The position numbers were made by a program, and so were the translations under genes. Of a DNA stretch of 42,860 nucleotides, positions 24,099-27,182 are shown piece after piece. The stretch's first letter is position 1. Every line of letters starts with the position of its first letter. A model generated the notes under the pieces. It was not told the DNA's origin, ran no database searches, and saw only the letters and a list, made by a program, of their open reading frames with translations. The stretch comes from an uncultured Algimonas sp. (GTDB taxonomy: Bacteria > Pseudomonadota > Alphaproteobacteria > Caulobacterales > Maricaulaceae): contig CALDUL010000008.1 in the NCBI GenBank assembly GCA_937923575.1, positions 1 to 42,860 of the forward strand, written 5' to 3'.

Positions 24099-25538
24099 TT
24101 ACTGCCGCCAAGTTGAAGGCAGGATGAGCGACAGCGCGACCAGCACTTCGACCCGCCCAACCAGCATGAGCACGGTGGAAATCACCATCTGCGGCGCGGT
24201 GAAGTCGGCATAGCGCAGGCCGGAAGCCGGCAGGGTCATGTCCAGCAGTGGCCCGATATTGGCGAGGGACGCGGCGGCCGTGGTCAGACTGTCCTCCAGC
24301 GCGAGCCCGGAGGCGCTCATCGCGACACCGCCAAAGGCAAAGCAGAGCATATAGCCGAAGAAATACATCCAGATGGACAGAAAGCTGCCGTCGTCGATGA
24401 TGGATTTGCGAAAGCGCACCGGCACGATGCGCGACGGATGGGATAGCCGCGCGACGTCGGTTCCAAGATGGCGAAAGAGCAGCAGCAGCCGGATGATCTT
24501 GATCCCGCCGGCTGTGGACAACGCCGAGCCACCGATCAGCGCCAGCATAATCAGCAGAGGCGACGGCACCATATCCAGGCTGATGACATCGTATTGATAG
24601 CCCGCCGTACTGACGAAAAAAACCGCGTCCAGGATCGCCGGACCGATGTTGTAAAGGCTCGCAAAGAAGACCGTGACCAGCACCAGCGCGCCGATCATCA
24701 CGAACAGGCCGCGATGTTCGACATGGGTGAACAGGCGGTAGGCTTGGCGGATGCGGCGCTGCCGCAGCGCTTCCCAGACGATGGAGACATTGAACGCCCC
24801 GAAGAGGCAAAGGACCGCCAGCACGATCGCGGAAAACGGTGACAGGATGGTGGACAGCGGCCCCGACTGCGGCTGCAGCCCGCCTGTGGCGATACCGGAC
24901 AGCGCTAGGCAGAGCGCGTCGAACGTGTCGGTTCCACCCAGCAACATCAGCACAAACGCCACGGCTGCGAGCAGGAGGTAGACGGCAGCGATTAGACGAC
25001 CGATCCCGACCATCCGCGGGAAGAGCTCGCCCGTGCGGAAAGTGAAAAGCGTACTGCGGTGAACACCTGTGCCGGTCAGGTTGAGTGCAGCGAGGATGAC
25101 GACTGCGAATGTGGCCGCGCTGACGCCGCCGAAATACTGCAAAAGCGAGCGCCAGAAACGCAGCGTGTACGACAACTCCTCCGGCTCCAAACGGCTCGCA
25201 CCCGTCGTGGTCATGGCGGAAACCCCCTCGAACATGGCGCTGATCGGGCCGGGCGACGCACCCAGCACATAGAAGGGCGCGCTGCAGATGATGGGTACAA
25301 CCGTCCAGAAAAGCATGAGAAACAGGATGGCTTCCGCCGCACTTTCCTGCGTTGATGCGCGAAAACTCGCCGTGACGAATAGGACCCCGATGAGCCCTGT
25401 CACCGCGGCCAGCACAGCGAGAAGCCCGGCTTGCTGAAACTCCAAATTGGCCAAGCCCACCAGCGCGGCGGTCGCCAACAACACGGCGGTCGCCACCAGC
25501 GAGTAGCCCAGCCACAGGAGTATGCGTACCAGGCCCAT
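24099..25538 (-). CDS. trkH: Potassium uptake channel protein TrkH
   Basis: TrkH is the ion-conducting subunit of the Trk potassium transporter, gated by TrkA. The 479-residue product is hydrophobic throughout, with four repeated M1-P-M2 units. Selectivity-loop segments include SAMTTTGAS, SGIATGGLQP and STAGYQYDVISL, the last followed by the GGSALSTAGGIKIIRLLLLF intramembrane loop. ATG 25536-25538 was chosen to give the family N-terminus. The AGGG before it lies inside the foldback element 25541-25805. Unlike the usual operon, trkA upstream is separated from it by that element. Confidence 0.93.
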   Translation of the reverse strand: MGLVRILLWLGYSLVATAVLLATAALVGLANLEFQQAGLLAVLAAVTGLIGVLFVTASFRASTQESAAEAILFLMLFWTVVPIICSAPFYVLGASPGPISAMFEGVSAMTTTGASRLEPEELSYTLRFWRSLLQYFGGVSAATFAVVILAALNLTGTGVHRSTLFTFRTGELFPRMVGIGRLIAAVYLLLAAVAFVLMLLGGTDTFDALCLALSGIATGGLQPQSGPLSTILSPFSAIVLAVLCLFGAFNVSIVWEALRQRRIRQAYRLFTHVEHRGLFVMIGALVLVTVFFASLYNIGPAILDAVFFVSTAGYQYDVISLDMVPSPLLIMLALIGGSALSTAGGIKIIRLLLLFRHLGTDVARLSHPSRIVPVRFRKSIIDDGSFLSIWMYFFGYMLCFAFGGVAMSASGLALEDSLTTAAASLANIGPLLDMTLPASGLRYADFTAPQMVISTVLMLVGRVEVLVALSLILPSTWRQ

Positions 25539-25540
25539 TA

Positions 25541-25805
25541 GGCCCTGTTTCCCGTGCTCGGACCGGTTTTGATCGCGATGAGCGTGCTCTGGGTTAGGAG
25601 CAACGCTGCAGGCATGCGTCCGCACGGCAAAGCGGCGCGACGACGTCCCAGGGCGCGCTCATGGCGACCGCAAAGCGGCGACTCTGGGGCGCTCCGTGGA
25701 CATCGTTGCGGCTCTTGCCAAGGCCGACGCATTGCCAGCGACCCGCGCCCAACCACGAACCGCCTCAGAGCCGTCAAAACTGGTCGAAGCACGGGATACA
25801 GGACC
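25541..25805. repeat. 265-bp imperfect palindrome (foldback/MITE-like element) between trkA and trkH
   Basis: The outermost 32 bases (25541-25572 and 25774-25805 inverted) agree at 27 positions, sharing TCCCGTGCT and GTTTTGA. Similarity continues inward, for example GGCATGCGTC against GGCAATGCGTC and GGCAAAGCGG against GGCAAGAGCC. The apex is CCGC-AAA-GCGG at 25668-25678, centred on 25673, the exact midpoint of the outer ends. Two bases separate it from the trkH start and three from the trkA stop. A minus-strand frame of 89 codons (GTG 25805-25807 to TAA 25538-25540) crosses it and abuts both genes. It contains the direct repeat GCAAAGCGGCG (25627 and 25670). No transposase is present and no clear target duplication was found. 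Confidence 0.7.
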
Positions 25806-25808
25806 ACA

Positions 25809-27182
25809 CTAATAGAGCTCGACGCCGACGCGGAAGAGCTTCTCTATGTCCTTGAGTGCGTCCTTTTCGGCCATCAGGACGACGCGGTCTCCGGGGGTGA
25901 GAATTTGCGAATCGTCGGGCATCATCACCGTGCCGTCGCGGATGATGGCGCCAATCGCGACGCCGTCATTGAGCGAGGCTTCGCGCAGTGTCTTGCCCGC
26001 AAAGGATGATGTCTCCAGCACTTCGCCTTCGAGCACTTCTGCCTGCCCCTGCGCCAGCGTGTAGACATCGAGAATACGGCCGCGGCGGACGTGGCGCAGG
26101 ATGGACGACACAGTCGAGGCCCGCGGGTCTATGACCATGTCAATATTCAGGTCGCGCTGCAGCTCCTGCATCGGGCGTTCATTGAGCAGTGCAATCGTGC
26201 TGGAGGCCCCGAGACGCTTGGCAAGAACGGAGGAGAGAATGTTGATCTTGTCGTCATTGGTCAGGGCGATCACGACGTCCGCGGTGTTCACGCCCGCCTC
26301 GTCCTGCACGGCCGAATCCATCGCGTCGCCATGCAGGATTACAGTGCGGGTCAGCGTGGCGGCGGCGAGTTCGGCCTGTTGCTTGTCCGCCTCGATCATG
26401 CGCACGCGCACGCCGGATTGGTCCTCGAGCGCCTCCGCCACGTAGCGACCGATGGAGCCGCCGCCGATGATGACGACGTGCCGCGCGCGCGTTTCGCGTG
26501 TGCCCACGACTTCCAGCAGCCGCGTGGCGTGCTCGGCCTTGGTCACGAAATAGGCATCGTCACCGACTTCCAGCGGGTCATCGAGATTGGGCGCAAAGAC
26601 CTGACCCTCTCGCCGAATACCGACGATGGCGGCGTGGAGTCCGGTGAAGAGGTCCGGAATCTGGCGGATGGGCGTTTCGATAATGGGGCAGTCTTCGCCA
26701 ATGCGCACGCCGAGAAACTGCACACGGCCATCTCCAAAAGGTACGACGTTGAACGCGCCCGGCGTTGAAAGCCGGCGCAGGATGGCCTTGCCGATCTCGA
26801 CTTCCGGGGAAATGATGATGTCGATCGGCATGTTCTGGCGCGAATAGAGATCGTTATAGCGCGCCATGAGGTAGCTCTGCGCGCGCACCCGCGCGACCTT
26901 GGTCGGCACGTCGAAGAGCGAATGCGCAATCTGGCAGGCGACCATATTGACCTCATCCGCATAGGTCACGGCGATGATCATATCGGTGTTTTCGATGCCC
27001 GCGCGAACCAGCACGTCGGGGTGGGAGCCGTGGCCGATGACGCCGCGCACATCCAGATCGGTCGTGATGTTCCGGATCAACTCCGGGTTCGTGTCGACCA
27101 CGGTGACGGTATTGTTTTCGATGGCGAGGCGCGAGGCGAGGCCGTAGCCGACGCGCCCGGCGCCGCAGATAATCACTCGCAT
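25809..27182 (-). CDS. trkA: Trk potassium system peripheral regulator TrkA
   Basis: TrkA is the cytoplasmic NAD(H)-binding ring that gates TrkH. The 457-residue product has two RCK units, each a Rossmann fold plus a TrkA-C domain. The first begins MRVIICGAGRVGYGLASRLA. The second begins near residue 232 with HVVIIGGGSIGRYVAEAL. Each is followed by an acidic-strand motif (VVDTNPE, MIEADKQ). An AGAGGG site precedes the ATG. It lies 28 nt downstream of ntrX, the common ntrYX-trkA arrangement of Alphaproteobacteria. Confidence 0.96.
   Translation of the reverse strand: MRVIICGAGRVGYGLASRLAIENNTVTVVDTNPELIRNITTDLDVRGVIGHGSHPDVLVRAGIENTDMIIAVTYADEVNMVACQIAHSLFDVPTKVARVRAQSYLMARYNDLYSRQNMPIDIIISPEVEIGKAILRRLSTPGAFNVVPFGDGRVQFLGVRIGEDCPIIETPIRQIPDLFTGLHAAIVGIRREGQVFAPNLDDPLEVGDDAYFVTKAEHATRLLEVVGTRETRARHVVIIGGGSIGRYVAEALEDQSGVRVRMIEADKQQAELAAATLTRTVILHGDAMDSAVQDEAGVNTADVVIALTNDDKINILSSVLAKRLGASSTIALLNERPMQELQRDLNIDMVIDPRASTVSSILRHVRRGRILDVYTLAQGQAEVLEGEVLETSSFAGKTLREASLNDGVAIGAIIRDGTVMMPDDSQILTPGDRVVLMAEKDALKDIEKLFRVGVELY

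Follow-up and report, generated by a model that had tools for sequence, protein, structure and literature searches.

Between trkA and trkH in an uncultured Algimonas sp., a long palindrome fills the intergenic gap to within a few bases, and the question raised by the 42,860-nucleotide stretch of DNA analyzed here (the window) is whether this palindrome is a mobile element and, if so, how it moves and what keeps its two arms matched. We found that it is an insertion and that it belongs to a family of related copies; taken as a whole, with the mechanism set out below, the explanation that we regard as probable is a non-autonomous palindromic mobile element, mostly 262–334 bp long, whose insertion point is the trkA stop or lies no more than four bases from it.

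The palindrome and its fold

Consistent with the first-pass annotation, the outer 32 bases are inverted repeats (27 of 32 agree), the apical CCGC-AAA-GCGG occupies 25668–25678 and is centered on 25673, and the palindrome lies two bases from the trkH ATG (25538–25536, minus strand) and three from the trkA stop (25811–25809, minus strand). A repeat-finding tool placed the arms at 25541–25601 and 25745–25805, with 72% complementarity. As had been claimed, such a repeat is not accounted for by chance: as RNA, the minus strand folds at −161.1 kcal/mol as compared to −115.5 ± 5.4 kcal/mol for 200 shuffles (z −8.4), none of which was as stable. The proposed extent of 265 bp holds for the matching arms (25541–25805), but from TA to TA the element measures 269 bp (25541–25809), and its trkA-side end is uncertain by four bases, ACAC, which are without counterpart at the ends of other copies and could be element or flank. 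Similarly, the single long hairpin envisioned at first is borne out as a very strong fold, but what is conserved across copies is a fold with an outer stem and two hairpins, A and B, that flank a small hairpin at the center. The features of the locus are as follows.

25539–25540, no strand: TA next to trkH, presumed to be one copy of the target (31 of 41 copies have TA on both sides; the nth site shows an exact duplication of TA)
25541–25572, plus: outer stem, left arm (palindrome arms, copy alignment)
25573–25667, plus: hairpin A, inverted relative of hairpin B (copy alignment)
25587–25653, minus: apical core of hairpin A (model R2 match, E 1.3e-13; the copy is among the model's own 21 sequences)
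25668–25678, plus: small central hairpin CCGC-AAA-GCGG (sequence, fold)
25679–25773, plus: hairpin B (copy alignment)
25693–25759, plus: apical core of hairpin B (model R2 match, E 6.7e-16; the copy is among the model's own 21 sequences)
25774–25805, plus: outer stem, right arm (palindrome arms, copy alignment)
25806–25809, plus: ACAC, four bases that separate the palindrome from the TA in the trkA stop and may belong to the element or to its flank (sequence, copy ends)
25810–25811, no strand: TA on the trkA side, with which the trkA stop TAG begins (minus strand), presumed to be the other copy of the target
25809–27182, minus: trkA, intact (match to TrkA above the curated cut-off)
24099–25538, minus: trkH, intact, its ATG two bases from the palindrome (match to TrkH below its own cut-off)

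Copies, empty sites, and the insertion target

The suggestion that this is a mobile, MITE-like palindrome was upheld by further copies, by empty sites in relatives, and by one clean TA duplication. Nucleotide searches recovered copies in the window's own genome and in related ones. The own genome holds three full copies, including that of the window (the second was found by blastn and the third by a search with a relative's copy), and three other genomes of the genus hold seven readable copies, two of them shortened, plus one cut by a contig end; these lie in G011 (six), G012 (one), and G009 (one, short). G011 carries the name Hellea sp. MAG-189; the genus Hellea is assigned by NCBI to Maricaulales, Robiginitomaculaceae. 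Among 60 genomes, the own genome included, with at most 12 candidates scored per genome, copies were present in at least G011 and G012 besides; the short G009 copy was added when the 18 genus genomes were searched later. An insert of about 15 nt is common to hairpin B of two copies in G011 (L013 1432–1712 and L014 1429–1635), the second of which lacks most of hairpin A.

We recovered trkA in 17 of the 18 genus genomes (all except G010), and because the 16 other than the window's own all lack the element at the junction with trkH, including the closest relative (TrkA 98% identical), the palindrome in the window is an insertion. The same pattern recurs elsewhere: purC was found in 17 of 18 genomes (not in G000), of which G011 is filled between purC and purS and the 16 others are empty, and a maoC-like gene could be located in 16 of the 18, of which G012 is filled between maoC and ribF and the 15 others have no insert after the gene (one of these, G017, has a different next gene). 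The purC–purS and maoC–ribF copies sit exactly at the stop of the upstream gene, as the window copy does to within four bases of the trkA stop.

Beyond the genus, model R1, built on hairpin B, matched three genomes of another genus among 137 genomes of the family, and with model R2, built on the core, matches were obtained in 21 of the 398 genomes of the order, belonging to 13 of 59 genera; these core models contain copies that they are judged on. Most of the R2 matches among those listed sit in TA-ended palindromes; weak ones may be false, as may L121, L130, and L135, which have no palindrome over the match. From these searches we picked by hand 41 copies in 19 genomes, wherever both ends were readable as a palindrome, of which 38 measure 262–334 bp and three are shorter (134, 170, and 205 bp); left out were contig-end copies in G139 and G263, eight matches (L121, L123, L125, L130, L135, L136, L142, and L145), solo hairpins (L110, L165), and short palindromes (L163, L164). 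The solo hairpins, of about 104 bp and with the family core, directly adjoin tRNA-Val genes (L165 938–1041 on contig C86 of the own genome; L110 184–285 in G011). The short palindrome, with ends TATACTCAGGATAC, lies in two places on one contig of G027 (L163 918–1081, L164 942–1113) and overlaps core-model matches. In G139 (contig C28, L224 134–195), a second inverted copy of the terminal bases lies at 180–195, about 40 bp outside the element end GCTCTA (134–139), and is possibly a solo or nested end. A Chloroflexi candidate from a pattern scan (L033) was rejected as it had no R1 match at E ≤1; blastn with the window element found nothing in plasmids and phages, and an exact pattern scan found nothing in viral contigs.

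The copies point to TA as the target: 31 of the 41 have it at both ends, and the neighboring base is C or T before the left TA (36 of 38) and G or A after the right TA (32 of 34). Target duplications had been proposed as a test, and one site, nth in a second genus, is clean: empty G140 reads GACTAGCC and filled G027 reads GACTA-element-TAGCC, an exact duplication of TA. The window, purC, and maoC copies, each with one altered end, are not clean in this respect. At the nth site of the empty genomes G140 and G137, the TA is common to the stops of two convergent genes, the far strand being open for 325 and 327 codons, and in filled G027 both convergent stops are still TAG.

Stop codons are a recurrent setting. 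Among the 41 copies there are 21 with an end that exactly closes an ORF of 100 codons or more, and four of these do so at both ends; among control sites at the same loci, required to lie at least 320 bases inside the locus, an ORF was closed at 9 of 53 CTAG, 35 of 272 YTAR, and 88 of 1925 TA sites (Fisher p 7e-4, 1e-7, and 7e-17, respectively, versus 21/41). The window copy falls outside the 21 because of the four extra bases at its trkA end. This excess may reflect targeting of TA together with loss of harmful insertions. For trkA itself, frame and stop are intact; the distance from its stop to the conserved TrkH motif is 282 nt, versus 15–81 nt in 16 relatives. Judged by this spacing, trkH must start without the short distance of its relatives, and a loss of translational coupling is plausible.

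Matched arms and the level at which they are kept

The eight full copies, aligned in one orientation, run from outer stem to hairpin A, small central hairpin, and hairpin B, hairpin A being an inverted relative of hairpin B with a core common to both; this alignment used eight of the 11 copies then known, without the shortened L014 and L019 and the contig-cut L015. Behind the TA comes a short motif fixed per subgroup, then a stem that is free in sequence but matched between arms, and then the two inverted hairpins with the conserved core. The first bases are GGTC, GAGC, GGGTC or GGGCC, GGCC, GGCTC, and GCAGG by group.

The outer stems vary between copies and match within them. In the eight-copy alignment, 47 of 101 pairs have changed on both sides and 92.6% of cells are paired, which none of 500 shuffles reached. 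In the 17 GAGC copies (G143c, starting GTGC, left out), the arms agree at positions 5–20 in 95% within a copy and in 39% between copies; picking copies by their palindromes raises the first figure and not the second, and copies were assigned to the group by their first bases. Among twelve pairs of related copies (of 16 reaching 80% identity, with both folds counted and the pairs not independent), there are 87 Watson-Crick double changes as compared to 7.8 expected from independent arms. In the same pairs, single changes (190) outnumber double ones (87 matched, 9 not), and the two closest pairs (97.5 and 98.2% identical) differ by 8 and 3 single changes, respectively, without any double change. 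The transition/transversion spectrum of the double changes was tried as a sign of arm copying and dropped, since the ratio for RNase P was similar (28 transversions to 29 transitions among distinct changes).

One could envision that pairing is kept because the transcript works as a terminator, a stabilizer, or an RNase III site, and the very strong fold, the covariation, and the copies between co-directional genes (e.g., trkA–trkH, purC–purS, and maoC–ribF) would all suit such a structured RNA. If pairs were kept by an RNA function, G-U would be expected to be much better tolerated than A-C. GT and AC counts in two alignments of the element (8 and 11 copies, the latter drawn from the 17 GAGC copies), however, were 15:21 and 19:26, together 34:47, as compared to 41:4 for RNase P RNA from all 18 genus genomes by the same method (Fisher p 2e-8; two RNase P subsets of eight gave 25:2 and 23:6). 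Mismatches within copies told the same story over all 41 copies (GT:AC 53:61), in the mRNA sense (26:25; 18 copies), and in the A-first sense (20:23; 14 of 41 copies orientable). Strand stability, considered as a test of selection on the transcript, gave mixed results, as the mRNA-sense strand folds better in three of four operon copies and is clearly worse folded in G000c, and the sole Rfam match (E 0.34, far below the gathering score) was at chance level. A structured RNA is thus an improbable explanation. Because wobble preference is absent, unlike in RNase P RNA, pairing appears to be kept at the DNA level, with the qualification that decayed copies would look even too, so that neutral decay of dead copies could account in part for the even counts. 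That an RNA hairpin uncouples expression of trkA and trkH, as the first-pass annotation envisioned, stands as a proposal only, and the pairing of the element shows no sign of RNA-level selection.

Alternatively, and this is the main rival, the element could be an otherwise ordinary TA-inserting MITE whose arms are matched in place by quasipalindrome correction, i.e., template switching at replication. Such correction would produce Watson-Crick double changes free of wobble bias, and it would require neither a special transposase nor any role of matched arms in transposition. Copies do, however, carry arm mismatches (complementarity of the Hellea outer stem averages 0.85 with a minimum of 0.58), and with single changes only in the two closest pairs, correction in place would be incomplete at best. 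We regard this rival as a substantial minority possibility.

Relation to known elements and a possible mode of movement

Membership in either family named at first is not supported. At 269 bp the window element compares with about 127 bp for ERIC (only lengths were compared), and RPE lie in frame inside ORFs, whereas here the stop that ends an ORF is formed at the element in 21 of 41 copies (a comparison by description). Correia/NEMIS, RUP, and ERIC elements are described as short, palindromic, TA-ended, and mostly intergenic (PMC2229807, PMC10969869); the present element is likewise palindromic, with TA at its ends, and mostly between genes, but it is longer, contains two internal inverted hairpins, and has a terminal repeat that is largely free in sequence and matched within the copy. 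The alphaproteobacterial CIR of Caulobacter and Brucella are intergenic, with two arms, TA ends, a length of about 110 bp, a linker, and GANTC in the loop (PMC2229807). The element shares with them its alphaproteobacterial host, intergenic position, two arms, and TA ends; unlike CIR, whose arms are joined by a linker without an outer stem, it has an outer stem and is longer, and the GANTC that CIR conserve in a loop is, by number of sites, not conserved in it (20 sites in 41 copies; 1.78 per kb versus 1.25 in the flanks). We found no description of the family in the literature searched, which is weak evidence as subscription papers lay mostly outside the search.

REPINs and GTAG/CGTC REP dimers consist of two hairpins in inverted orientation that carry a conserved motif, some dimers lying inside longer palindromes and one kind being TA-ended (PMC3733652). 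The present element is also an inverted hairpin pair with a conserved motif and ends that can give TAG; in contrast, its hairpins measure about 95 nt rather than 20–40 nt, and it shows no association with Y1 and a duplication of TA. Its core often holds CGTC, but in stems and loops it differs from the GTAG/CGTC hairpins described. A REPIN-like element moved as single-stranded DNA by a RAYT/Y1 tyrosine transposase would account for the two inverted hairpins with their conserved core, and it has been reported that ORFs can receive TAG stops from REP ends (PMC3733652). The distribution of Y1 speaks against it: PF01797 (E ≤1e-8) was detected in three of 21 element-positive genomes (G133, G307, and G358), about the background of 44 in 398 genomes of the order, and it was not reported for G000, G012, G139, or G143. 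Furthermore, to our knowledge TA duplication is not expected of this class. We thus consider movement by RAYT/Y1 very unlikely. The element is of the MITE/REPIN-like kind already known, in a new variant form; as in MITEs, it is short, has terminal inverted repeats, and contains no transposase gene.

To return to the preferred reading of a non-autonomous mobile element, a member of the family would insert into TA, which would thereby be duplicated, and as most copies begin with G, a TAG stop would be restored, so that the upstream gene need not be harmed. Duplication of TA suggests that a DDE transposase of a TA-inserting type would act in trans to move the element. Transposases of the IS630 or IS5/IS427 kinds are candidates; by eye, no transposase or autonomous relative was noticed in the ORFs around the matches or on four element-ended contigs (L224–L227). 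The stem, free but matched, has a fixed tip on one side and the conserved core on the other, an arrangement that suggests recognition and re-matching of folded DNA in movement. The element may thus move as a cruciform or hairpin, recognized by its shape and core, and correction of mismatches from arm to arm would keep each stem matched while its sequence drifts; we hold the chances that it moves and is corrected in this way to be about evenly balanced. Only tentatively would we go further and envision a class of TA-inserting transposons whose ends are known by the shape of folded DNA and not by sequence, in which the free-sequence stem is compulsory and the arms are re-matched in each cycle.

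An insertion that duplicates TA can sit in stop codons, even one common to two convergent genes, and leave both proteins unchanged. The family offers a natural set of insertions from across a single bacterial order; their common stem has been rewritten from copy to copy and still pairs. It thereby becomes testable whether long bacterial palindromes persist through RNA function, replication errors, or the way in which they move.
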